Source: Clostridiales bacterium (GTDB lineage: Bacteria; Bacillota; Clostridia; Christensenellales; Aristaeellaceae). From it: a DNA stretch of 39,179 nucleotides. This document shows, in pieces, positions 7,641 through 21,176 of the stretch; position 1 is the first letter of the stretch, and each line of letters starts with the position of its first letter. Position numbers and translations under genes: made by a program. The notes beneath the pieces were generated by a model, which was given only the letters and a program-made list of their open reading frames with translations, made no database searches and was not told where the DNA came from. The stretch lies in NCBI GenBank assembly GCA_015056325.1, contig SVGL01000019.1:1-39179 (forward strand). The letters are read 5' to 3'.

Positions 7641-8193
7641 GAATGAAAACGGCTTCTCCCTGTGTGAGGAGTGCGGCGTGAACGAGGCCTGCTACACCAT
7701 CTCCGTCATGATGGGCGGGCAGATCACCCAGCGCCATTTGTGCGCGGATTGTATGGCCAAGATGAACATGAACCTGGCAGCCGGCAACGTCAAGCACCTG
7801 CTCAGTGCGATCATGAGCGCCATTTCCGGCTCGGTGGAGGAGGCTGCTGCTTCTGCCGCCGAGGAGGCGGAGGAGACCGCGGCCATCGTGTGCGAGCGCT
7901 GCGGCACCAGCCTGAGCCAGTTCACCAAGTCCGGCAAGCTGGGTTGTCCGAATTGCTACCAAGCCTTCCGCGAGCAGCTGACGCCCATGCTCCAGCAGAT
8001 CCATGGCCGCGTCCAGCATGCGGGCCGCAAACCCCTTGATGATGAGGCTGCCCAGCGCCGCCGTGCGCTCTACGACCGCCTGAGCCGGCAGCTGGAGCAG
8101 GCCGTGGCCATGGAGGACTTTGAGACCGCCGCCATATTGCGCGACCAGCTCCGCCAGCTGAGCAATGCGGAAGGGGGTGAGCACAATGCGTAA
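7633..8193 (+). CDS. mcsA: McsA, activator of the McsB arginine kinase
   Basis: Zinc-binding adaptor that activates McsB and modulates CtsR. The 186 residues carry four CxxC pairs (CEEC, CADC, CERC, CPNC), then a C-terminal UVR motif (QLEQAVAMEDFETAAILRDQ). An Ala/Glu-rich linker (SVEEAAASAAEEAEETAA) separates the two zinc modules. The start is ATG 7633, preceded by GGAGG; it overlaps ctsR by 8 nt and mcsB by 8 nt, so the three are translationally coupled. Confidence 0.95.
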   Translation: MAENENGFSLCEECGVNEACYTISVMMGGQITQRHLCADCMAKMNMNLAAGNVKHLLSAIMSAISGSVEEAAASAAEEAEETAAIVCERCGTSLSQFTKSGKLGCPNCYQAFREQLTPMLQQIHGRVQHAGRKPLDDEAAQRRRALYDRLSRQLEQAVAMEDFETAAILRDQLRQLSNAEGGEHNA

Positions 8194-9184
8194 CGATGTT
8201 GTGCTGTCCTCCCGGGTGCGGCTGGCCCGCAACTACGAGGATATCCCCTTTGATGTGTCGGGTCGCCCGGAGTTCGCGGCGGTGTGCGCGTCCCGTACGG
8301 TGAACGCTCTGAAGGCTGCCGGGGTGGACAAGGGCTTCGATCTGTTCCGGCTGAAGGATATGTCTGACGCCTCTCGCAAGGCCATGGCGGAAAGCCGGCT
8401 CATCAGCCGCGATCTGCTGAATAACGCCCAGTCGGCTGCTGCGCTGATTCGTCCCCAGGACGCCGTCACCGTCATGATGGGCGAGGACGACCACCTGCGC
8501 ATCCAGGCCATCCGCCCGGAGATGGATCTGCTCAGCGCTGCAGCCGCCTGCTTCCGGGTGGACGACGCCCTCAGCCGCCAGGTGAACTTCGCCTTTGACG
8601 AGCAGCTGGGCTACCTGACTGCCTGCCCCACAAACACCGGCACCGGCATGCGCGCCTCGCTCCTGATGCACCTGCCCATGCTCACCAAGGCCAAGAAGAT
8701 GGGCGACGTGGGCCAGTTGGTGGCGAAGGTGGGCCTCAATATCCGCGGCGTGTATGGCGAAGGCAGCGAAGCGCTGGGCAACATCTACCAGGTATCCAAC
8801 CAGGTTACCCTGGGCCGTACAGAGCAGGAGCTCATTGCCACCGTGACCGCCCTGGGCAACCAGCTTTGTGACATGGAAAACGCCCTGCGCGACAAGGCAA
8901 AGAACGAGGGGCGCATCCCCCTGGAGGACATGGTTTTCCGTGCCTGGGGAGCGATGACCAACGCCCGGCTCATGCCCCTGAACGAGTTCTACCAGCATTG
9001 GTCGAACCTGCGTCTGGGCGCGGCGATGGGGCTTTTGAAGCTGCCTTTGCCCCTGGTGGACGCGCTGCTGGACCACGCTCAGGAGGCCCATCTGTGCGTC
9101 TGGGCGGAGGAAGCTCTCTCCGGCGCAGCCCTGGAGGAAGCCCGCGCCACCCGCATCCGCGAGATGCTGGGGATGGCAAAATGA
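8186..9184 (+). CDS. mcsB: Protein-arginine kinase McsB
   Basis: Phosphorylates arginines on aggregated proteins and on CtsR, tagging them for ClpCP. The 332-residue protein has the guanido-kinase catalytic domain: SSRVRLARN near the N-terminus, the conserved cysteine loop CPTNTGTGMRASLLMHLP, and RGVYGEGSEALGNIYQVSNQ with the substrate-positioning Glu. The C-terminal pArg-binding helical domain follows. ATG 8186 was chosen over an upstream ATG because AAGGGGGTGA lies at proper spacing. Confidence 0.95.
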   Translation: MRNDVVLSSRVRLARNYEDIPFDVSGRPEFAAVCASRTVNALKAAGVDKGFDLFRLKDMSDASRKAMAESRLISRDLLNNAQSAAALIRPQDAVTVMMGEDDHLRIQAIRPEMDLLSAAAACFRVDDALSRQVNFAFDEQLGYLTACPTNTGTGMRASLLMHLPMLTKAKKMGDVGQLVAKVGLNIRGVYGEGSEALGNIYQVSNQVTLGRTEQELIATVTALGNQLCDMENALRDKAKNEGRIPLEDMVFRAWGAMTNARLMPLNEFYQHWSNLRLGAAMGLLKLPLPLVDALLDHAQEAHLCVWAEEALSGAALEEARATRIREMLGMAK

Positions 9185-9213
9185 TGATGTCTTAGAACAG
9201 AAAGGATCCATAT

Positions 9214-11865
9214 ATGCCGATTTTCGCATCCTTTTCCAAGCGGGCGCAGCTGGCGATCAAGCTCGCCCGGGATGCTGCCGCCGCGCAGAAGCAGCCCTTC
9301 GTGGGCACGATGCACCTGCTGCTGGGGCTGCTCCAGGCCGGGGGCAACTACCCTGCCTGCCTGACCGATCGCGTGACCACCGAGCATGTGCAGCAGCAGC
9401 TTGACAACATGCCCCACGAGGTGGAGTCCATCCCCGAGGGGGTGAACCCTGCCGCCGCGCCGGGGAAGATTGCCCTGACGCCCCATGTGCGCCAGGTGTT
9501 TCAGCGGGCGGCCCAGCTCACGCCCATTGCCGGGGCCTTCGTCACGGCGGAGATGCTCATGCTGACGCTCGTGGGCGAGCATCCCTACGGCGCGACGCAG
9601 TTGCTGCGTCAGCTGGAGGTGCCCTTTGAGCAGGCGCAAAAGGAGCTGATGGCCATCATCCGCGCGGCCCGGGGCGCCAATATGCCTGCCGTGAACGTGG
9701 AGAAGCCCGATCAGTCCGACGAACAGCCCAAGAAGCCCCAGCTGCCGCCCCAGCCCGGCATGCCGCCGCTCTTCCCCTTCATGCAGCGCCCCCAGCAGCC
9801 GAACCAGCCGGCCCAGCCCCAGGAGGGCAAGGGCCGCCGCGCACCCTCCATGCTGGAGCAGTATGGCCGCGACCTGACGGAGCTGGCCGCGAAGGGTGAG
9901 CTTGATCCCGTTATCGGTCGTGACAATGAGATCCAGCGGCTGACGCAGATCCTCATCCGCCGCACGAAGAACAACCCCGTCCTCATCGGCGAGCCCGGCG
10001 TGGGCAAGTCCAGCGTGATGGAGGGCCTGGCCCAGCGCATCGCCAGCGGCAACGTGCCGGAGATGCTGCTGCACAAGCGGGTCATCAGTCTGGATATCGG
10101 CTCCATGGTCGCGGGCAGCAAGTACCGCGGCGAGTTCGAGGAGCGCCTGAAGAACACCCTGGCCGAGATCCGCAAGAGCGGCGACGTGCTGCTGTTCATC
10201 GACGAGATGCATACCATCGTCGGTGCGGGCTCTGCTGAGGGATCCCTGGACGCGGCGAACATCATGAAGCCCGCCCTGGCCCGCGGCGAGCTGCAGTGCA
10301 TCGGCGCGACGACGCTGGATGAATACCGCAAGCACATCGAGAAGGATGCGGCCCTGGAGCGCCGTTTTCAGCCCGTGCGTGTGGGCGAGCCCACCGCCGA
10401 GGAGGCGCTCGATATCCTCCACGGCCTGCGGGAAAAGTACGAGGAGCACCATCACGTCCGCATCACCGACGAGGCGCTGAGTGCCGCTGTCACCCTGGCG
10501 GATCGCTACATTGCTGACCGCCATCTGCCCGACAAGGCCATCGACCTGATGGACGAGGCCTGCTCTCGCGTGCGCATCGCGGCCTACACCGCGCCGCCGG
10601 ATCTGCGCATGCAGGAGAAGGAGCTCGAGGCCATCGAGAAGGACAAGAAGGCCGCCATCGAGCATCAGGATTACGAGGCTGCCGCCAACCTCCGCGACCG
10701 CGAGCGCTGCCTGCGCCTGGAGATCGACAAGAAGCGCGAGGCCTGGAACGCTTCCCAGGGAACCGACGGCGAGACCGTTACCGAGGACGATATCGCGGCT
10801 GTCGTTTCCACCTGGACGGGCATCCCTGTCACCAAGATGACCCAGAAGGAAATCGACCGCCTGCTCCAGCTGGAGAGCGTGCTGCACCAGCGGGTCATCG
10901 GCCAGGAGGAGGCCATCGGCGCTGTCAGCCGTGCCATCCGCCGTGCCCGCGCGGGCCTGCAGGACCCCAAGCGCCCCATCGGCAGCTTCATCTTCCTGGG
11001 TCCGACGGGCGTGGGCAAGACTGAGCTGTGCCGGGCATTGGGCGAAGCCATGTTTGGGGACGAAAACGCCGTCATCCGCGTGGATATGTCCGAATTCATG
11101 GAGAAGCATACCGTCAGCCGCCTGGTGGGCTCGCCCCCCGGCTATGTGGGCTACGAGGAGGGCGGTCAGCTGACCGAAGCCGTCCGCCGCAAGCCCTACG
11201 CCGTCGTGCTGCTGGACGAGGTGGAAAAGGCCCACGGCGATGTGTTCAACATCCTGCTGCAGATTCTGGAGGACGGCCGTCTGACCGACTCCACGGGCCG
11301 GGTGGTGTCCTTCAAAAACACCATCATCGTCATGACCTCCAACGCCGGCGCTCACGCCATCAGCCACGGCCGCCAGCTGGGCTTCGGCGCGAAGGAGCGC
11401 GTGGACGCCACCAACTACGAGTCCATGAAGGACAGCGTGATGAAAGCGGTGAAGGACGTCTTCCGTCCGGAATTCATTAACCGTGTGGACGAACTGATTG
11501 TGTTCCACCCGCTGACGGAGGCGAACATCGAGTCCATCGCCGCGCTGATGCTGAATCAGGTCGCGGACCGCCTCCACGACCGGGCCATCGCGTTGGCCTG
11601 GGAGCCCGAGGTGGTCACCAAGCTGGCCCGCGAGGGCTACGACCCGAAGTACGGTGCGCGTCCGTTGCGCCGCCTGATCCAGCGCACGGTGGAGGACGGC
11701 CTCTCCGAGGAGCTCCTTGCAGGCCGTATTGCCCTGGGCGACAGCGTGCGCCTGGTGGTGGAGGCAGACAGAATCATCGCCAAGCGGGTTGACAACCTCG
11801 CCACGCCGGAGGAAGTGGCTGCACTGCCTGCTGCGGCTCCTGCACTGATGGAAGCAACTGAATAA
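9214..11865 (+). CDS. clpC: ATP-dependent Clp protease ATPase subunit ClpC
   Basis: AAA+ unfoldase that feeds ClpP and recognises arginine-phosphorylated substrates. It has 883 residues. The paired N-domain repeats (residues 1-150) are followed by an unusual Pro/Gln-rich linker of about 50 residues (roughly 160-210). D1 has Walker [10 protein letters not shown] (about 259-267) and Walker B FIDEMHT; the Ser replaces the usual Thr after GK. The middle domain holds a UVR-like [19 protein letters not shown]2 has Walker [10 protein letters not shown] (596-604) and [12 protein letters not shown]. Start ATG 9214 is preceded by AAAGGA. It is last in the ctsR operon. Confidence 0.97.
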
Positions 11866-11910: not shown

Positions 11911-13065
11911 TCATTTGAGGGTGACGGGCAGCTTAATGCGGAAGCCGTCCTCCGTTTCGTAGACGAGGATGACCGTGTCGGGCAGGGACTGCGCAACCTC
12001 GATCAGGCAGCAGTCAAACTGGCGGAACCAGGTGCCGTCAGGGGACTCCTCCACGGTGATCTCGTACATGGGCATCAGGCACATGCCGTAATGGTCAAGT
12101 TCGTTGCCGTCTTCGTCGTAGAAGGCAAAATTCATGCTGTCTGACCAGCGGACGATGTCCTCATAGTTGGCATTTTCCGGGGTGAAGGTCGCGACAATGT
12201 GGGTCTGCAAGGGTGAGATGCTGATGCTCTGCACGGCGAGGGTCGTGCCGTCCTTGATGACGGGAGCGGGGAGCTCCGGCGTACGGACGGAGGCACGGGC
12301 GGCCTTCAGGTCGAGGTCGAAGCCAACCTTCATTTCACTGCGGGAAAGGCCCACGCCGGTCACCTGGTTCACCGGGCCGAAGCCCTGCACCAGCCCTTCC
12401 TCCGGGTCGTTGATGATGAATCCGTCGCCTCCGGCGATGACATAATAGCCCTCGTTCCACTTCTGCCGGATGGCGTCAGCATCGAATTCGTCCATCAGGT
12501 ACACCGGCTTGTCCGGGGTATACACGCTCACAATCATCTCCACATGGAGGGTATTGCCGGTGAGGGAGGGCAGATTAACCCATTCGCCGTCCATCATGGT
12601 GCCGTCGTTGCACCAGCCTGGAAGCCATTGGTAATCGAAGTCATCGGTGCCATCGGTAAAGATGGTCTCACCGTTGGCGGTGAAGTCTTCTACCACCAGA
12701 TATACCGGCGTTTCCGGCTTGGTATTGCTTACGGCGTAGTCAAAGGCCAGGTACTCGCCATCCGTGATGGCGCTGTCGATACGCAGGGTCACATTGCCGG
12801 TCTTTGCGTTGGCGGACACCGGCTGCATCAGCGTCTGCGCGTCGCTGTCCGGCTGGATGCCCAGGAAGGCCAGCACATTCCAACCCTCCGCAATGGCAAC
12901 GGTGGTCATCAGGGTCAGAATCGCGGCCACCAGAATGGCCACAGGGAATTTGCGCTTCATGGGTTCCTCCTCCTTCACGGAGCGGGCGGCGTCCATCAGC
13001 GCGGCGCGGCAGTCATCCGGCATGGCCGGGTAGGCAGCGCGCAGGGTGAAATCCTGATTCTTCAT
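11911..13065 (-). CDS. Putative membrane anti-sigma factor (DUF4179-like)
   Basis: This 384-residue protein has a cytoplasmic N-terminal segment of about 36 residues, one transmembrane helix (about 40-60, PVAILVAAILTLMTTVAIA), and a long beta-rich extracytoplasmic domain. The layout and its position directly downstream of an ECF sigma gene, with ATGA start/stop overlap, are those of membrane-bound anti-sigma proteins of the DUF4179 type in Bacillota. Function is inferred mostly from context. The start ATG at 13065 has GGAGCTGGAGG upstream. The domain assignment should be treated as tentative; no catalytic motif is visible. Confidence 0.65.
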   Translation of the reverse strand: MKNQDFTLRAAYPAMPDDCRAALMDAARSVKEEEPMKRKFPVAILVAAILTLMTTVAIAEGWNVLAFLGIQPDSDAQTLMQPVSANAKTGNVTLRIDSAITDGEYLAFDYAVSNTKPETPVYLVVEDFTANGETIFTDGTDDFDYQWLPGWCNDGTMMDGEWVNLPSLTGNTLHVEMIVSVYTPDKPVYLMDEFDADAIRQKWNEGYYVIAGGDGFIINDPEEGLVQGFGPVNQVTGVGLSRSEMKVGFDLDLKAARASVRTPELPAPVIKDGTTLAVQSISISPLQTHIVATFTPENANYEDIVRWSDSMNFAFYDEDGNELDHYGMCLMPMYEITVEESPDGTWFRQFDCCLIEVAQSLPDTVILVYETEDGFRIKLPVTLK

Positions 13066-13517
13066 ACCTCCAGCTCCTTTCTCAGTTGTTTTTTTGCGCG
13101 GGCGATGCGGCCCCGCACGGTGGTTTCCGGCAGATGCAGCACCCGCGAGATTTCATGATAGGACATGCCCTCGGAGTACTGGAGCATCAGCGGCAGACGC
13201 AGATCTTCCGGCAGCGCGCGCAATGCCAGAGATAGCGCAACATCCGGTGGGGGAGCGGATGCTTCCGGCGCATCCTCCAGGGACAGGACGGACCGCCGCT
13301 TGCGCAGCATCCCCCGGCAGACATTGATGCAGATGCGTGTCGCCCAGGTGCCAAAGTAGGCCTGATTGCGCAGAGCGCCCCGGTGCTGCCAGGCGCGCAG
13401 GGCAGTCTCCTGCAGAGCATCGGCTACATCGGCATTGTTCCCCAGGATGGTCCAGGCCACCCGGTAGAGGGAATCCGCCCGCTCGTCTATCAGCCGGACG
13501 AAGCTTTCCTTGTCCAT
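13062..13517 (-). CDS. ECF-family RNA polymerase sigma factor
   Basis: This 151-residue sigma-70 family protein has only regions 2 and 4. Region 2 runs through SLYRVAWTILGNNADVADALQETALRAW. Region 4 is LPEDLRLPLMLQYSEGMSYHEISRVLHLPETTVRGRI (quoted in parts: MSYHEISRVL is the helix-turn-helix). A Pro-rich spacer joins the two. Start ATG 13517 is preceded by AAGGAGAA. The stop overlaps the downstream putative anti-sigma gene as ATGA. The signal sensed is unknown. A perfect 12-base palindrome lies just upstream. Confidence 0.92.
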   Translation of the reverse strand: MDKESFVRLIDERADSLYRVAWTILGNNADVADALQETALRAWQHRGALRNQAYFGTWATRICINVCRGMLRKRRSVLSLEDAPEASAPPPDVALSLALRALPEDLRLPLMLQYSEGMSYHEISRVLHLPETTVRGRIARAKKQLRKELEV

Positions 13518-13548
13518 GAGGGCTTCTCCTTTCGCGTGCATCATGTGC

Positions 13549-13640: not shown

Positions 13641-14963
13641 TTACTTCTGCTGCTCAAAGAGCATGCCGGGATCCTCTTCCTCCGCCATGGCGTCGGCTTC
13701 GATGATCTCCAGGGTGACCTCCACGTCGATGTACTCACCGTCGGGGGCGTCCTCGTTGGCGCTGCGCTCCAGCAGGCCCTCGGCGCGGTAAACCTTCACC
13801 TGGAGGGTGTCGCCGACCTTGTACTTGCCCACCAGGGCGATCAGCTCCGCGGTGTCGGTGATGATGGTGTCGTTCACTTCCACCACGATGTCGCCCGCGA
13901 TGAGGCCGGCCTTGTCGGCAGGACCGCCCTTCTCCACCTCGGTGATGAACACGCCGTCGGGGATCTGGCCCAGGCGGGCGGCGCGGCTGGAGGCATTCAC
14001 GTTGGCGATGGAGACGCCCAGGCGGGGCTTGCCGGTCAGGTCATCAGCCGGGGCAGCCTCGGACTTTTCCTTTTCGGGCTTGACCAGCTCCACCTTGCCG
14101 GAGAGCACGTCCTCGATCATGGGCTTCACCGCATTGATCGGGATGCACATGCCGATGCCCTCTACGGAAGCGCCGGAGTAGTAGCTGCCGGTGTACTTGA
14201 GGGTGGGGATGCCCATCAGCTCACCGGTGACGGAGAACATGCCGCCGCCGGAGTTGCCGGAGTTGATGGCAGCGTCCACCTGGATCATGGCGTTGGTGAT
14301 GGTCTCCTTGCGGCCGTACTTGTCGTAGGTCTCGGACTCAATGCCGCGGTTGAGTGCGCTGATGATGCCCACGGTTGTGGTCTTGGCAAACCCCAGGGGA
14401 TTGCCGATGCAGATGGCCCAGTCGCCCACCAGTAGCTTGTCGCTGTCGCCCAGGGTGACGTGGGGGAGCTTGCAGTCAGGGGCATAGAGGATGGCCGCGT
14501 CCATGGTTTCGTCCCAGGCGATGAGGCTGGCGGCATATGCGGTGGTTTCGCCGGCATCGTCGGTCACGGTGACCTCCAGGCGGTCCGCCTCTTCCACCAC
14601 ATGGTAGTTGGTCAGCACGAAGCCTTCGCCGATCACCACGCCGGAGCCGGTGGAGGCCAGCTGCTCGCGGGTTTCGGGCTCCTGCTCGCGGCCGCGGTCA
14701 CCATAGTCGAAGCCGAAGCCGAAGTAGAATCCGCCAAAGCCATTGCTGTAGTTGGAGTAGGTGACCTCCTGATAGTTGCTCACACCCACCACGCTGTCAC
14801 GCACCTGGGCAATGGCAGCGGTGAAGGGGGAGGTGTGGATGACGGTGGTGACATTTCCCTCCGCCAGGGCGGCAGGGGCGGTGAGGCTGATGGCGGAGCC
14901 GATCATGATGCAGCTCAGCGCCAGGGCGACGCAGCCAATAAAGCGACGCATACGGTTGCTCAT
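13641..14963 (-). CDS. HtrA/DegP-like S1C serine protease with PDZ domain
   Basis: This envelope quality-control protease has 440 residues. One N-terminal hydrophobic segment (about 8-35, ending AALAE) acts as signal or anchor. The trypsin-like domain shows the full triad: His121 in LTNYHVVEEAD, Asp155 in DETMDAAIL and Ser238 in NSGNSGGGMF. A Tyr/Gly/Phe-rich loop sits at about 68-90. One PDZ domain (about 318-415) contains GGPADKAGLIAGDIVVEVN. The protein ends in an acidic tail. Start ATG 14963 is preceded by AGGAGG. It closes the locus that begins with the response regulator at 21176, as htrA genes do in many walRK loci, but has its own 128-nt upstream region with repeat motifs. Confidence 0.93.
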   Translation of the reverse strand: MSNRMRRFIGCVALALSCIMIGSAISLTAPAALAEGNVTTVIHTSPFTAAIAQVRDSVVGVSNYQEVTYSNYSNGFGGFYFGFGFDYGDRGREQEPETREQLASTGSGVVIGEGFVLTNYHVVEEADRLEVTVTDDAGETTAYAASLIAWDETMDAAILYAPDCKLPHVTLGDSDKLLVGDWAICIGNPLGFAKTTTVGIISALNRGIESETYDKYGRKETITNAMIQVDAAINSGNSGGGMFSVTGELMGIPTLKYTGSYYSGASVEGIGMCIPINAVKPMIEDVLSGKVELVKPEKEKSEAAPADDLTGKPRLGVSIANVNASSRAARLGQIPDGVFITEVEKGGPADKAGLIAGDIVVEVNDTIITDTAELIALVGKYKVGDTLQVKVYRAEGLLERSANEDAPDGEYIDVEVTLEIIEADAMAEEEDPGMLFEQQK

Positions 14964-15091: not shown

Positions 15092-16591
15092 TTACCGGAG
15101 GATCTTGTTTTCCAGCGCGATGAGCAGGAACACCGCGGCGCCCACCAGCAGCGAGAAGGCCAGGGGCAGCAGGGCGGCGAGTCCCTGCAGTGCGCCGATG
15201 ACGATCAGCACCAGCAGCATCACAGCGGAGACAGCCAGCATCATACGGGGTAGGCGGCTGGCTGCTCCTTTGAGGGTGAATCCCTTGCCGCAAAGGCGCA
15301 TCGCTGCACTGCAGGCGCCGGCCACGGAGATCAACCCGCTGGCCATGAAGGCCAGGACGCCGGGCTGCGACAGCAGGAAGAGCCGCGTCAGCAGCGCGAT
15401 TACCATCAGGATGATGGCGGTGGGCAGCCGAAGCTTGGGGGCGGTCAGATCCACGCCGATGGCGATGGCCCCGAAGAGCATCAGTCCCGCGATGAACAGC
15501 GGCACCCAGGTGCTGCCGGCAAGCACTGCCACCCCCAGGGCAGTCCCCAGGAAGAGGGCGAAGTGCCGCAGCGTCTCCTCAATGGTGCGGAAGCGCTGGC
15601 GCAGCTGGGAAATGGGTTCCACCAGAGATTCGCCGGGCACGCGGGTGACGCCCAGGGCGCTTTCGCCGGTGATGGCGTCGGGGGTCAGCCGGATGTCGGG
15701 GCGGGCGTGGTGATCGGGCAGCTCCAGCAGCATGCGGAGGCTCGCCAGGTCGGTATCAGCCTGGGCGTCGGCATCCAGCATGACGGTCAGGCCCATCGCG
15801 CGCAGCTCGGAAACCTCCTGCAGGGCGGAAAGGTGAAGCTCTTCGCCCACGCCGGCCATGCCCAGAAAGATGGGCTGCTCGTAGTTCAGCGCTGTGCCCC
15901 AGGCCATCACGCGGCAGTTTGCCTGGGTGATGTAGCCCTCGGTATCGGCAATGCGGATTTTGTCATGATCAGTCAGGGGACGGGTGCTGCCTTCCCAGAT
16001 CGCAGGGCACAGATTTGCAACAGCCATGGGAGCACCCAGGTAATAGCGGCGCTCGTTCATGCCGTCCCGCACGGTGATGACGGTGACGTCCCCCTGCTTT
16101 TCCCGGGCAAGCACCGGGTTGTGGCTGCGCAGCCGATCCGGTTTGATGTTCAGGGCCTGCACTGCGCTGAGGATGGCGGCACGGTCTGCCGGTGGCAGGG
16201 TATCTGCGGTGAGGGTCATGGCCGCGCCCAGCAGCAGCGCGCCGGAGCCCAGGCGCATGCTGAGGGAATCAGCCACGTCCACGGGCTGAGCGGCAGCGCG
16301 CAGTCGGGTACCTTGGCCGATGAGGGATGCGTCAATGGTGACGGTCTCGCACAGGGCGTCCTTGGGGCGGGGCGTGCGCTGATAGACTGCCCCGAAGGCG
16401 TGGTGCCGATGCAGCAGATACAGGAGCAGCACTGCGTTTATGAGCAGCAGCGCAGGCAGGCTCAGCCAGGTCAACCCCAGCAGCCACGACAGCAGCAGAA
16501 TCAGCAGATTTGCCGCCGGATACAGCCACTTGCGGTGGCCTTGCAGGGCCGCATCGCACCAGCGGGCCAGCTGGTAGGAGTTCAGTTTCAT
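15092..16591 (-). CDS. Degenerate P-type-ATPase-like membrane protein (probable pseudoenzyme)
   Basis: This 499-residue protein is laid out like the second half of a cation P-type ATPase. There are two helices (about 24-62), a large cytoplasmic part (65-335), then six helices (about 344-493) like M5-M10. The middle shows N-domain-like LGAPMAVANLC (KGAPE-like, 185-195), RPLTDHDKIRI and FLGMAGVGE, then P-domain-like LRAMGLTVMLDADAQADT. There the TGD motif is replaced by DAD, and IDASLIGQ (86-93) stands where DKTGTLT is expected. FRTIEETLRHFALFL resembles the linker into M5. The A domain and GDGxND are not seen. ATP-driven transport is therefore unlikely; a regulatory or scaffold role is inferred. 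Start ATG 16591 has GGAGG upstream; the gap to the GerMN gene is 14 nt. Confidence 0.7.
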   Translation of the reverse strand: MKLNSYQLARWCDAALQGHRKWLYPAANLLILLLSWLLGLTWLSLPALLLINAVLLLYLLHRHHAFGAVYQRTPRPKDALCETVTIDASLIGQGTRLRAAAQPVDVADSLSMRLGSGALLLGAAMTLTADTLPPADRAAILSAVQALNIKPDRLRSHNPVLAREKQGDVTVITVRDGMNERRYYLGAPMAVANLCPAIWEGSTRPLTDHDKIRIADTEGYITQANCRVMAWGTALNYEQPIFLGMAGVGEELHLSALQEVSELRAMGLTVMLDADAQADTDLASLRMLLELPDHHARPDIRLTPDAITGESALGVTRVPGESLVEPISQLRQRFRTIEETLRHFALFLGTALGVAVLAGSTWVPLFIAGLMLFGAIAIGVDLTAPKLRLPTAIILMVIALLTRLFLLSQPGVLAFMASGLISVAGACSAAMRLCGKGFTLKGAASRLPRMMLAVSAVMLLVLIVIGALQGLAALLPLAFSLLVGAAVFLLIALENKILR

Positions 16592-16605: not shown

Positions 16606-18099
16606 TTAATGGGAAATCAGGGCGGGGTGATAGAGAAACTCGCCGTCCCAGGCGACGCTGCTGTCCAGGTCAGGGAGCTGTTCGCCTGCGAAGAAGAAGC
16701 GAACCCGCCGAACCTCCAGCATCTCACACAGGGTATTGACCATCGCGTAGGCCATCAGACGCTGATCCATGCCGGATTGGCGGATTATGTCCGAATACCT
16801 GGCGGAAAAGTTTACCAGCAGGGTATCTCCGTGGACGGACAGGCCAAGGATATCTGCGTCGGCAAGACCTGCAGGCAATGCGCCCACGGCGGGGGATGCC
16901 ATGGCCAGCAGCACGGCGCGGGGATTGGTCACGCTGCGGTAGGGCAGGGACAGTGTGCTGGCGGTCAGCTGAGTGCTGTCAGGGATGTATACCGTGGTCT
17001 GGCCCATCAGCGTCTGGGGGAAGGAGGCGCGGGTCATCAGTGCGCCGGGGAAAAGCTGCGAACCCAATGTGGGGCTGTACAAGCTGGTCAGCGCGCCATC
17101 GCCCATGAGGATGCACACCTGATGCAGCGAGGGTACAAAGCTGGTCAGCGTGGTGGTGATGGCGGCAAACATGCACGCCGGGTCACAGCCGGCTGCGGTA
17201 ATACGCTCCTTCACGTCGGCGGTAAAATGAAGGGTGACACGCCGTCCGCCGCTTTCCAGGTCTGTGACTTCCGGCTTGAAGAGAAGCATGGCGTTCAGGT
17301 CGGGCATATCCGCCGCGCCGGTCAGGGCGTCCGCACCGGAGGAAAGCGCGCTGAGCAGGGCAATCACCTGCTGCTGGGGGTGCTGTCCGGGGAAGGCGAT
17401 GCGCCGGGCTTCTGCGACGATGCCCTTGCCGTCCGCCAGCGGGAAATACAGCGCGGCGGCGGCAGTCAGAGGCGTTTGGGCTGGCAGATCGCCCACGGGG
17501 GTGCGGCGGGCGGCCATTTGATCCCAGAGCACAGGCAGCTCCTGGGCGGGCGGGGCGGTCAGCAGGCCCAGGGGCAGGTTGCCGCCCACATCCATGGCCA
17601 CAGGCCGTCCGGCGATGAGAAGATTCACATAATCGACGTCATCCAGCTCGCACAGGGTGGCTGCGATGGCAAGCGCTGCGGTGTACAGCTCCTGGCTGGA
17701 CAGCGACAGTGCGCTGGCGGAGAGGTTGACGGTGCACAGGCTGCCAGAGATCTCCACCGGGTTTGCGCCGTAGAGGGAGATCTCCGCCATCCCTGCAATG
17801 GGACGTACGCGGCTGTTCCCCGGATGGGTCAGCAGGGCCTGCAGGATGGCCTGAGCGGGATGCTGATCCCGGGTGAGCAGCAGGGGCTCGTAGAAGGTGA
17901 GCAGGGTCTGTCCGTCCTGGGAGGGCAGATGCAGCGCCGCAATGACCTCCTGCTGGAGGCCGGCGTCACCGATGGGAGCTTCCGGGGCGGCAGGGGCTGG
18001 GGGCAGCGTGACGTTGGGAGCAAGGGGTGCTGGGGTAGTGCAGCTGCTCAGCATGGCTGTGCAGAGCAAAAGGCAGGCAAGGCATTTTATGGTTTTCAT
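16606..18099 (-). CDS. GerMN-domain lipoprotein, tandem domains
   Basis: This 497-residue exported lipoprotein has the signal MKTIKCLACLLLCTAMLSSC with lipobox LSSC (Cys20). Two GerMN-type segments are visible. One is around YTAALAIAATLCELDDVDYV with LIAGRP. The second, near the C-terminus, includes LLVNFSARYSDI, MAYAMVNTLCEM and VRRVRFFFAGEQ. GerMN domains occur in spore-germination protein GerM and in lipoproteins encoded beside WalRK-type kinases. The start at ATG 18099 overlaps the preceding lipoprotein gene's stop as ATGA, so the two are coupled. It probably acts at the outer face of the membrane, perhaps sensing or modulating the kinase (inference). Confidence 0.85.
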   Translation of the reverse strand: MKTIKCLACLLLCTAMLSSCTTPAPLAPNVTLPPAPAAPEAPIGDAGLQQEVIAALHLPSQDGQTLLTFYEPLLLTRDQHPAQAILQALLTHPGNSRVRPIAGMAEISLYGANPVEISGSLCTVNLSASALSLSSQELYTAALAIAATLCELDDVDYVNLLIAGRPVAMDVGGNLPLGLLTAPPAQELPVLWDQMAARRTPVGDLPAQTPLTAAAALYFPLADGKGIVAEARRIAFPGQHPQQQVIALLSALSSGADALTGAADMPDLNAMLLFKPEVTDLESGGRRVTLHFTADVKERITAAGCDPACMFAAITTTLTSFVPSLHQVCILMGDGALTSLYSPTLGSQLFPGALMTRASFPQTLMGQTTVYIPDSTQLTASTLSLPYRSVTNPRAVLLAMASPAVGALPAGLADADILGLSVHGDTLLVNFSARYSDIIRQSGMDQRLMAYAMVNTLCEMLEVRRVRFFFAGEQLPDLDSSVAWDGEFLYHPALISH

Positions 18100-19064
18100 G
18101 GCAGTGCCTCCCTTCCTGTCAGCTGGGAGAGGCCTACGCGCCAAAGCCCCTTCTCCCGGGTCAGACGCAGCACCATGCCCTCAAAGGGCGTCTCCCTGCC
18201 GTCGGTCATCCATGCGCCGCTGACGGTATAGGTGGCGGTCTGCCCCCCGAAGGACACGCTGCCGCCTTTGACACGGACGTGCAGCAGATGGGGCTGCGCT
18301 GCCATAGCTTCCAGGAAGGCTGTCTCGTCGGGGCGGATGGCGTTGGTGGCCGGATCGGTGCGGGCGATATAGCGATACAGTCGGGCAAAATCCCGCTCCT
18401 GCCAGCACTGGAGGATGACTTCCGCCGTGCGCGCCGGTGTGAGAAGCAGGCTTTCGTCACGGATGAGGGGATCAGCCAGATCCATGTTGCCATCCAGGGT
18501 ATAGTAATCCTGGCGCAGGCGGAGGCTGTCGGTGGCATTGCCGGTCTGTTCCACCAGGATGACCACCCTGTCAACCGCGAAGTTTTCCGTGATGGTGGCA
18601 GCAATGGACTGCATGGCCAGCTGGCGGCGCAGGGGAACTTCGATGGCCCAGGCGGTCTGGGTGCGCCAGGCAGCAGGCTCATCGGGATAGCTGTTCATGA
18701 TATGGCGGGAGAGGGTGACGAACATCACCGGGCCGGCCTGTGTGGCGGAGATCACCTGCGTCCCTGTGGGGAAGAGGCTGTTCAGACCGGCAGATGCAGT
18801 GCTGGGACCGGCCACCAGCGCGCGGAGGATGGCCAGGGCGTGTCCCTCTGTGCGGGAGTGGGTGATGGCGCGGCTTTCGGCAGCCAGGAAGGGTTCTTCG
18901 CCATAGCGGAACCAGAGGGTAGCCTGATCCTCATTTTCCGGCAGACCATCGATGATGGGGGCGGGGATATCGGCGGGGGCAGTCTGCACAACGGAGGTGA
19001 GGGGGGCACGGCTGCAGCCGGTCAACAAGAAAGTCAGGAGCAGCAGGGGCAGAAGCTTGCGCAT
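18096..19064 (-). CDS. GerMN-domain lipoprotein encoded next to the histidine kinase
   Basis: This 322-residue exported lipoprotein has lipobox LLTGC with Cys17. It contains one GerMN-type region (EGHALAILRALVAGP, LNSLFPTGTQVISA, ATITENFAVDRVVILVE) and a C-terminal segment resembling a small NTF2/TPM-like accessory region that I cannot assign. The ATG overlaps the stop of the histidine kinase gene by one base, and its own stop overlaps the next GerMN gene. This tight coupling places it in the same signalling unit, in the position occupied by walH/walI in classical loci. Confidence 0.82.
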   Translation of the reverse strand: MRKLLPLLLLTFLLTGCSRAPLTSVVQTAPADIPAPIIDGLPENEDQATLWFRYGEEPFLAAESRAITHSRTEGHALAILRALVAGPSTASAGLNSLFPTGTQVISATQAGPVMFVTLSRHIMNSYPDEPAAWRTQTAWAIEVPLRRQLAMQSIAATITENFAVDRVVILVEQTGNATDSLRLRQDYYTLDGNMDLADPLIRDESLLLTPARTAEVILQCWQERDFARLYRYIARTDPATNAIRPDETAFLEAMAAQPHLLHVRVKGGSVSFGGQTATYTVSGAWMTDGRETPFEGMVLRLTREKGLWRVGLSQLTGREALP

Positions 19065-20446
19065 CAGGCGTCCCCCTTTCGGATAGGCAGTGTCACAGTG
19101 AAGGTGGAACCCTTGTCGGCGGCGGAATCCACGGTGATTTCGCCCCCGTGGAGCTGCACCATCTGCCGCACGATGGAAAGTCCCAGACCGGTGCCGCCGG
19201 TGGCACGGGAGCGTGCCTTATCCACCCGGTAGAATCGGTCGAAGATGTGGGCAACATCCTCTGCAGGGATGCCGATGCCTGTGTCGCGGACGGTCAGGAC
19301 TGCCTCCCGGTTGTCTGCGCGGAGGCAAACCTCCACTGTGCCGCCTTCGGGGGTGTACTTGACAGCGTTGTCGATCAGGTTGTACACGACCTGGCTGAGT
19401 TTGGATTCATCGCCGGTGAGAAGCACGTTCTCATCCAGCTCTGCCTGCAGGGTGAGGCGGGCCTTCTCGGCAGCGGGGCGAAGGGCATGGACGGTATCCT
19501 CGCACAATTCAGTCAGGCTGATTTTTTCCAGTTTAAGGCTGGCTGCGTGGCTGTCCATCTGGGTCAGGGTCAGCAGATCGGTAATGATGCCGGAGAGTCG
19601 GTCGATCTCGTGGTTCATGTCCTGCATGAACTCTGCCCGGAGCTCCGGAGGCATATCGGGCTGGTAGATCAGGTTTTCCAGCAGGATTTTCATGGTAGCC
19701 AGGGGCGTTTTCAGCTCGTGGGATGCATTCTGAACAAACTGGCTGCGGCTCTGGTCGAAATGCTCAATCTGTTCTGCCATGGCGTTGTAGCTGTCAGCCA
19801 GATCTTTGAGCTCTCCCGTGGCGCGGACGTCAGCACGGGCGCTCAGATCCCCCTTGCCCATCCGGCGGATGGTGGAGGTCAGGGACTTGATGGGCGCTGT
19901 CAGGGTAAACGCGAAAATCAGCGCTGCGATCAGCGCAGCAGCAGCCACCACGATGAACACGGTCATGAGCTGGCGCTCGACGTGCTGGATGGCCTGGTGC
20001 AGTTCGATGACTGGCGTAGAGATCAGCACTGCGCCGATGATCTCGCCATCATGCACCACGGCGGCGGCACAAAGGGCGGCATAGTCGTCCGTGGTTTCCA
20101 ATCGGTGGATGCCGTAGGCCTGGGTTTCGGCGCCGGAAAGGACGGTCATTACCTCCGGGGTTTGGCTGCGGGTCCCCTCCAGGAGGGCCAGGGTGTCCAG
20201 CTGAATTTTGCCGCTCTGATCAATCAGGAGGATGCGTCCCTCTGCGTCAGCGGCGGCGGCATCCAGGGTATCCGCCAGAGTTTCCAAATCGGCGGAGGCA
20301 AAAAAAGGCGCAGCCGACGCAGCCAGCTTCTCTGCATAGAGGCTGGCCTGACGGGTGCGCTGTGCATACAAAGTGGACGACACCAGCCCCGTCAGCAGGG
20401 CGGCCATCGCCGCAAAAGACGTCCCCAGAATGATGAGGAATGTCAA
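19064..20446 (-). CDS. Sensor histidine kinase, WalK-like position, no PAS domain seen
   Basis: A 460-residue membrane kinase. Two helices (about 2-25 and 162-183) flank an extracytoplasmic sensor domain. HAMP follows (LTAPIKSLTSTIRRMGKGD), then HisKA with phospho-acceptor His243 in NASHELKTPLATM. The ATPase boxes are NLIDNAVKYTPEGG, DTGIGIP, FDRFYRVD and GGTGLGLSIV. HAMP leads straight into HisKA, without the PAS domain of Bacillus WalK. The given start is TTG 20446, which has only a weak ribosome site. In-frame CTG codons at 20473 and 20479 would add basic residues (NSIRWK) before the first helix and lie closer to the regulator stop. The true start is therefore uncertain. Confidence 0.93.
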   Translation of the reverse strand: MTFLIILGTSFAAMAALLTGLVSSTLYAQRTRQASLYAEKLAASAAPFFASADLETLADTLDAAAADAEGRILLIDQSGKIQLDTLALLEGTRSQTPEVMTVLSGAETQAYGIHRLETTDDYAALCAAAVVHDGEIIGAVLISTPVIELHQAIQHVERQLMTVFIVVAAAALIAALIFAFTLTAPIKSLTSTIRRMGKGDLSARADVRATGELKDLADSYNAMAEQIEHFDQSRSQFVQNASHELKTPLATMKILLENLIYQPDMPPELRAEFMQDMNHEIDRLSGIITDLLTLTQMDSHAASLKLEKISLTELCEDTVHALRPAAEKARLTLQAELDENVLLTGDESKLSQVVYNLIDNAVKYTPEGGTVEVCLRADNREAVLTVRDTGIGIPAEDVAHIFDRFYRVDKARSRATGGTGLGLSIVRQMVQLHGGEITVDSAADKGSTFTVTLPIRKGDA

Positions 20447-20483: not shown

Positions 20484-21176
20484 TTAGTCCTGATCGGTGA
20501 AATAGTAACCCACCTTCCACTTTGTCAGAATGAACTCAGGCTGATTGGTGTTGCGCTCGATCTTCTCACGCAGGCGGCGGATGTGCACGTCCACGGTGCG
20601 GGCGTCGCCGGTGTAGTCATACTTCCACACGTTCTCCAGCATTTCCTGGCGGGAGAAGGGACGGCCGCGGTGGGTGATAAACAGATGCAGCAGGTCGAAT
20701 TCCTTGGCCGTCAGCCGCACATCCTCGCCGCCCAGCTTCACCGTGCGCTTGAGGAGGTTGACCTCCAGGTCGCGCACCCGCAGGATCTTCTTCTCCTCCA
20801 TGGGCGTCACGGCCCCGGCGCGGCGCAGTACCGTGCGGATGCGGGCGCGCACCTCCAGGATGTTGAAGGGCTTGGTCATGTAGTCGTCCGCGCCATATTC
20901 CAGACCAAGGATCTTGTCCATATCCTCGCCCTTGGCAGTGAGCATGATGATCGGCACGTTGGACTGCTCGCGGATGCGCTGGCACACGCTCAGGCCGTCC
21001 AGCTTGGGCAGCATCACATCCAGCAGCACCAGGTCAAAATTTTGCGTTTGGAATTTGGCCATCGCCTCTTCGCCATCCATGGCAAGGTCGGTTTCGTAGC
21101 CTTCCTGTTCCAGCGTATATTTTAGGCCCTTGAGCATCAGGGGTTCGTCGTCTACCAGCAGAATGCGCTTACCCAC
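20484..21176 (-). CDS. OmpR/PhoB-family response regulator, WalR-like
   Basis: A 230-residue two-component regulator. The receiver domain has the acidic pair VDDEP, phospho-acceptor Asp53 in LVLLDVMLPKLDG, and the TKPF lysine around residue 103. The winged-helix DNA-binding domain includes LTAKEFDLLHLFITHRGRPF, SRQEMLENVWKYDY and RTVDVHIRRLREKIE, all very close to WalR. Translation starts at GTG 21176, preceded by GAGGTGA. It is first in the minus-strand unit with the kinase and GerMN lipoproteins. The 10-mer in its promoter also occurs upstream of the protease, which suggests autoregulation and a shared target. Confidence 0.95.
   Translation of the reverse strand: MGKRILLVDDEPLMLKGLKYTLEQEGYETDLAMDGEEAMAKFQTQNFDLVLLDVMLPKLDGLSVCQRIREQSNVPIIMLTAKGEDMDKILGLEYGADDYMTKPFNILEVRARIRTVLRRAGAVTPMEEKKILRVRDLEVNLLKRTVKLGGEDVRLTAKEFDLLHLFITHRGRPFSRQEMLENVWKYDYTGDARTVDVHIRRLREKIERNTNQPEFILTKWKVGYYFTDQD

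Follow-up and report, generated by a model that had tools for sequence, protein, structure and literature searches.

The window analysed here, 39,179 nucleotides from a draft Clostridiales genome (3.06 Mb, 84.9% complete), carries on its minus strand a two-component operon in which genes for a response regulator, a histidine kinase and two GerMN lipoproteins are followed by a gene for a P-type ATPase relative that has lost its catalytic motifs. We refer to this protein and its counterparts in other genomes as dead forms. The features of the locus are, in the direction of transcription:

20484..21176 (-), OmpR/PhoB-type response regulator (NCBIfam matches)
19064..20446 (-), sensor histidine kinase, WalK/PnpS/MtrB-like (NCBIfam; the 25 matches listed are all below cut-off)
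18096..19064 (-), GerMN1, first GerMN lipoprotein (PF10646, E 9.6e-9; lipobox with 18.3 bits, E 0.003, where the cut-off is 20 bits)
16606..18099 (-), GerMN2, second GerMN lipoprotein, immediately upstream of the dead gene (PF10646 Germane, E 7.9e-24)
15092..16591 (-), pseudo-P-type ATPase, 499 aa (open reading frame, homology, predicted fold)
16397..16534 (-), N-terminal helix pair, residues 20-65, M3-M4 equivalent (AlphaFold helices 20-38 and 41-65)
16313..16336 (-), IDASLIGQ, residues 86-93, in the position of the DKTGT phospho-acceptor (32 intact pumps aligned)
15842..16312 (-), N domain, residues 94-250
16049..16066 (-), DGxxxR, residues 176-181 (column counts in 26 dead forms)
15761..15784 (-), VMLDADAQ, residues 270-277, at the place of TGD (alignment)
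15116..15619 (-), six C-terminal helices, residues 325-492, M5-M10 equivalents (AlphaFold model)
13641..14963 (-), HtrA-type serine protease with a PDZ domain, next downstream (Pfam)

The ATPase gene comprises 499 codons and starts with an ATG that lies 14 bases behind the GerMN2 stop codon and is preceded, 6 bases on its 5' side, by GGAGG. In composition, the kinase, the regulator and the GerMN lipoproteins resemble the MtrAB-LpqB system: PF10646 is found in both lipoproteins, and these stand beside a kinase and a regulator. The likeness stays below the cut-offs of that system (234.7 against 300 bits for MtrA, 224.1 against 450 bits for MtrB); the window operon has two GerMN lipoproteins, and neither has a match to the LpqB propeller domain at E <= 0.01, only Germane and the lipobox being detected. 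Right after the HtrA gene, at 11911-13544 (-), lie genes for an ECF sigma factor and for a 384-aa protein with a weak, sub-cut-off match to DUF5643. At 8165-11865 (+), genes for an ATP:guanido phosphotransferase and, after it, a Clp-type AAA+ protein form a pair that we take to resemble mcsB-clpC.

Relationship to P2A-type pumps and loss of catalytic motifs

Structure prediction of the window protein by AlphaFold (mean pLDDT 88.1) reproduces the P-type order that the original prediction had read from the sequence: the helix pair, a mixed alpha/beta region and six terminal helices (325-358, 363-378, 389-406, 411-437, 443-467 and 471-492). The alpha/beta region is predicted to contain the N-domain fold of P2A pumps, and this strong structural match to the P-type N domain is one on which the original prediction had made itself depend. 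The A domain, which had not been seen in the sequence either, is missing from the model, and the modelled chain starts at the M3 equivalent. Given that the A domain and M1-M2 are both predicted to be absent, the helix pair is to be read as M3-M4, a correction to the earlier reading.

Searched alone against Pfam, NCBIfam and PDB sequences, the window protein has no significant match. Among the 65 aligned members of its clade, TIGR01522 (PMR1-type Ca2+ pump) matches 28 (best E 3.1e-6) and TIGR01116 matches 16 (best E 4.1e-6), both at E <= 1. Pairwise comparison by hhalign of the 65-member profile with 12 intact pumps of the same family gives a probability of 98.7% and E 2.4e-16 over residues 116-273, and the N-domain traces singled out beforehand (LGAPMAVANLC, RPLTDHDK, RVMAWGTA and FLGMAGVGE) are indeed aligned with intact P-type ATPases in this comparison. 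A profile of 27 dead forms retrieved intact pumps from other genomes (best E 4.8e-26); in the profile search of PDB sequences the best matches were SPCA1 chains (E 0.036). Precomputed PF13246 labels of some window-clade homologues were not reproduced by our own Pfam scans. On the strength of these sequence comparisons, the dead protein is related to P2A-type (SPCA/PMR1-like) ion pumps. It shares with the P2A Ca2+-ATPases the predicted N-domain fold, a P-domain remnant, the M3-M10 order and the profile matches, but has neither DKTGT, TGD at its place nor GDGxND, and is predicted to lack the A domain and M1-M2.

Alignment with the intact pumps puts IDASLIGQ where DKTGTLT had been expected, although a second alignment of the close relatives (A1 clade) shifts the register by two residues, and VMLDADAQ replaces TGD, as proposed. 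DKTGT and GDGxND are each absent from all 65 A1 members and from all 43 loci read in other genomes, the absence of GDGxND having been anticipated from the window alone. TGD occurs in none of the 65 and at one of the 43 loci (G037), there away from the motif's place, while TGES strings are present in 4/65 and 0/43; the stray TGES of the window protein sits C-terminal of the N domain.

Residue counts were made on 26 of 33 dead forms (L029, L033, L044, L049, L109, L115 and L117 were left out, both here and in the tree below) and on 32 intact pumps, which were chosen by DKTGT and GDGxND and therefore hold these columns, though not the others, complete by construction. The intact row L048 was also left out; it lacks DKTGT because the contig start cuts the gene. 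The GDGxND columns are gaps in 26/26 dead forms. In the DKTGT columns, K and G are found in 0/26 each, and the position of the phospho-aspartate is still D in 15/26. The glutamate of the PEGL ion site in M4 is E in 1/26 dead forms versus 32/32 intact pumps, and the N-domain lysine is retained in 3/26, namely the soluble ones. Other residues are conserved among the dead forms: P103 in 25/26, and D176, G177, R181 and L263 in 24/26 each. D176, R181 and L263 are atypical of intact pumps, whereas G177 is G in 10/32 of them. P103 is P in only 3/32 intact pumps, which are exactly the sister pumps of genomes G033, G144 and G171, in agreement with the ATPase tree.

The gene is under constraint. Of 119 homologues, 118 are 480-508 aa long; the 64 that were aligned with the window protein show 42-89% identity, and 31 columns are invariant in the 65 sequences. 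Twenty-nine of these columns fall in the cytosolic residues 79-324 and two in the stalk, with none in residues 20-65 or 343-499. Mean entropy follows the same order, rising from 1.13 (79-324) through 1.61 (helix pair) to 2.0 (C-terminal helices, 343-499). Four pairs of dead genes gave dN/dS values of 0.27, 0.25, 0.45 and 0.57, with the frames of the pairs L043/L045 and L038/L041 untrimmed at the 5' end and thus possibly including a stretch that overlaps GerMN2; neighbouring genes, available as controls for the first three pairs, gave 0.04-0.19. This indicates purifying selection, but weaker constraint than on the neighbours. No internal stop is present in 41 of 44 matches from the window's GTDB family, and in the other three a TGA appears solely where the match ends at the C-terminus. 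Decay of the gene in a single strain, which the original prediction had named as its possible undoing, is ruled out by the 119 homologues and by the spread of the gene through its family (see below). With the catalytic motifs lost and the predicted fold and selection kept, the protein is a putative pseudoenzyme, and the proposal that catalysis was lost while the fold was retained is supported.

Distribution and descent of the dead forms

The profile of 27 dead forms, six of which had originally been found via the operon, detects a dead form at 162 bits or more in at least 44/308 genomes of the window's GTDB family, belonging to 6/50 genera. The next best family matches are intact pumps (142 bits in G033, 76 bits in G171, then lower). 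Among 297 genomes of the order, nothing outside the family exceeds 91 bits and all matches of at least 27 bits lie in frames of at least 876 aa, some weaker ones being in shorter frames or near contig ends. Among 341 genomes of the class, the only matches within E 1e-20 are the window genome and a single frame of 1005 aa; weaker relatives would be missed at this cut-off. These multi-genome searches scored the top candidates of each genome, and all counts are lower bounds.

At 41 of the 43 other loci the dead gene lies directly 3' of GerMN2 on the same strand, at most 147 bases from frame to frame. The remaining two are G119, with the dead gene directly after GerMN1, and G178, with no operon gene within the 15 kb examined; their dead forms are sisters in the ATPase tree (100/98). 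Both genomes are of one genus and have the dead gene and GerMN2 on separate contigs (L047 and L112 in G119, L042 and L110 in G178), as if the operon had been split. The full order from response regulator to HtrA is found in 6/6 named loci, all metagenome-assembled genomes of Clostridia or Clostridiales and four of them from the gut of sheep, goat or roe deer; these are probably six of the 44 genomes and hence not independent cases. In two genera, the place that HtrA takes in the window, next to the dead form on its 3' side, belongs to a ComEC-like gene (Competence/DUF4131; L043 8368-10809 and L032 5091-5732).

The operon is far more common than the dead gene. GerMN2-like matches occur in at least 190/200 family genomes (E <= 0.001; some are other GerMN proteins), compared with at least 44/308 for the dead form, which implies that the operon mostly exists without it and that this part is accessory. 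A survey of the slot downstream of GerMN2 at 60 family loci found a dead form at 8 and no P-type relative at 52; given that the loci were picked from GerMN2 matches, mostly in genomes not then known for a dead form, the survey is not used as a frequency, and its negatives include three loci with less than 1.5 kb downstream as well as G119 and G178, which hold the dead gene elsewhere. At GerMN2 loci of other families, a P-type relative was found in 0/20 (one with only 195 bases downstream), which marks the dead form as an add-on rather than a core component.

The ATPase tree was built from 58 catalytic-core rows, of which 57 are distinct (act_L056 and ord_L163 are one gene). All 26 dead forms stand on one side of a single branch (100/99), and together with the intact pumps of G033, G144 and G171 (29 rows) they are split from the 29 other intact rows (99/95). 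The intact pump of a further genome, G509, is 94% identical to that of G144, 65-71% to those of G033 and G171, and 47-49% to three pumps of the other clade. The original prediction had called for relatives that still carry DKTGT: these four intact pumps are the nearest to the dead forms, and one of them occupies the same operon slot. This is the pump of G171, 146 bases behind the GerMN2 of a response regulator-kinase-GerMN1-GerMN2 series. In G144 and G509, the intact pump follows GerMN2 on the same strand with an opposite-strand helix-turn-helix gene in between (Pfam HTH_3; L217 8714-9397 and L213 7935-8582), and the G033 contig breaks off short of the gene upstream of the pump. A rule that the intact pump always sits directly in the slot was thus rejected, as only G171 conforms to it. 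G035 (L173 4825-12371) has a different gene order, with an intact pump of the other clade upstream of a regulator-kinase pair that converges on the GerMN pair; it was not counted among the slot pumps.

Taken together, the intact pumps in or near the slot in G171, G144 and G509 and the ATPase tree make it most likely that a pump already encoded in the operon lost its catalytic chemistry there, and catalysis was probably lost once, early in the GTDB family. The GerMN2 tree does not fully agree with one loss, and later gene losses must be assumed: it places the dead operons on three branches, with G033, which has an intact pump, next to the largest. Independent losses in several genera, as this tree would suggest, were rejected for two such groupings on the ATPase tree (p 0.005 and 0.0004); the grouping of G033 with the largest dead branch is the one rejected at p 0.005 in the AU test, where long branches could mislead. 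With this caveat, a single loss is kept as the simpler reading.

A proposed regulatory role and its alternatives

The operon position, the pattern of conservation and analogy with other systems suggest that the dead protein is regulatory, and we think it rather probable that it serves the operon's own histidine kinase as a non-catalytic partner. The ancestral operon-encoded pump, after losing its chemistry, may have been kept for its cytosolic module, which could contact the cytosolic or HAMP region of the kinase. For the membrane class we envisage that the helices anchor the N domain next to the kinase and the two GerMN lipoproteins, where the N domain would bias kinase activity such that the state of the envelope is passed to the kinase. 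For the soluble class, with its retained N-domain lysine, the signal may be the binding of a nucleotide. Tentatively, we put forward the full scenario: a bacterial ion pump gave up catalysis while encoded in its two-component operon and turned into a separate protein for signalling, in effect part of a receptor, and a soluble branch of its descendants may sense ATP directly.

Accessory control of a kinase of this type has a counterpart in mycobacteria, where phosphorylation of MtrA needs TapA, an accessory activator that binds MtrB even without its kinase domain (PMC12338722). In the available text of that source, MtrAB-LpqB with TapA shares with our operon the combination of response regulator, kinase and GerMN lipoprotein, and TapA, an accessory protein that tunes the kinase, is not described as a pump or as related to one. 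The dead pump may do the same kind of job on its kinase as TapA does on MtrB. With regard to the protein itself, the closest precedent is Plasmodium GC-beta, whose degenerated P4-ATPase domain is fused to a cyclase (PMC6592433). As far as that source was available, the alveolate guanylate cyclases, GC-beta in particular, likewise tie a P-type domain without most signature residues to a signalling enzyme; they are eukaryotic, P4-type and a single chain, whereas the dead form is bacterial, stand-alone, P2A-type and part of a two-component operon. The yeast glucose receptors Snf3 and Rgt2 are described, in the portion of the text at hand, as using transporter architecture for sensing instead of transport (PMC12740885), as would the dead form in its putative role; they are eukaryotic, have the major facilitator fold and a known ligand, in contrast to a bacterial P2A-type protein. 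PcrP (PA2803) is likewise a HAD-superfamily protein with a role independent of catalysis, as proposed here for the dead form, and the accessible text does not describe it as a P-type ATPase (PMC12632274).

P-type ATPases are usually treated as pumps, and the title of one section in a 2023 review asks whether eukaryotic metal P-type pumps are transceptors (PMC10654040). We found no free-standing P-type pseudo-ATPase in the literature searched (titles and the beginnings of abstracts, with few subscription journals), and the dead forms, if our reading is true, would be the first such family within it. One family offers a natural series: the slot is occupied by an intact pump or by dead membrane forms, and a further dead form is predicted to be soluble. 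The series shows what part of a pump is worth keeping after pumping stops. Whether pumps can signal thereby becomes a question that a single operon and an assay of its kinase could address.

Hydropathy analysis of the 26 dead forms predicts 0, 2-4 or 4-8 membrane helices, and this variable number argues against a single membrane mechanism for all of them. The soluble class comprises 28 database relatives, none with DKTGT or GDGxND; no membrane helix was detected in the three members scanned, the one member folded shows a predicted N+P fold (pLDDT 92.0), and the one protein scanned passes the PF13246 cut-off (34.3 versus 21.7 bits). Its N domains hold the lysine equivalent to K515 in 26/28, Tyr for Phe487 in 23/28 and Arg for K492 in 15/28 (we take K515, F487, K492, R560 and E309 to be SERCA residue numbers). 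Such a pocket on the N+P fold would suit a nucleotide sensor, that is, an N domain that binds ATP without phosphoryl transfer and reports its bound state to the kinase as an energy signal. The window class speaks against it, with Leu in 40/65 and Lys outside the six commonest residues of the K515 column, and a gap in 65/65 at Phe487. As these pocket residues are gone, the idea applies at most to the soluble class unless the pocket was rebuilt, and we regard it as rather unlikely.

It is improbable that the dead form acts instead on an intact paralogous pump from another locus of the genome, as its inhibitor or partner. At least 12/44 dead-form genomes do have a PMR1-type match in a frame of at least 729 aa (motifs inspected in three of these, G024, G119 and G154), but the dead gene keeps its place with the kinase operon and not with a pump, and the window genome, at its 84.9% completeness, yields five TIGR01522 matches in two frames (690 and 839 aa), of which none exceeds the family cut-off. 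Slightly less probable again is a passive channel or scaffold, in which the transmembrane bundle would conduct without ATP coupling and the cytosolic domain would be left over. The predicted M5-M10 equivalents do persist in the window class, and pump folds can be channels, as the title of a structure-match entry on Na,K-ATPase forming a cation channel with palytoxin indicates; yet the membrane part is the least conserved region by entropy, the PEGL glutamate is almost lost, and no membrane part is predicted for the soluble class.

That the gene is a slowly decaying relic without function would fit its dN/dS above that of neighbouring genes and a length that varies between genera, but is highly improbable in view of the near-uniform length of the homologues, dN/dS below 1 in 4/4 pairs, the invariant columns, the reading frames free of internal stops or with a terminal TGA only, the short distance from GerMN2 to the ATG, and residues conserved among dead forms and not among pumps.

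A minor observation concerns the C-terminus: five dead forms of genus g1 (L027, L028, L029, L031 and L033) end in (L/M)ECS after the variable last helix, and three other printed forms of this genus do not.
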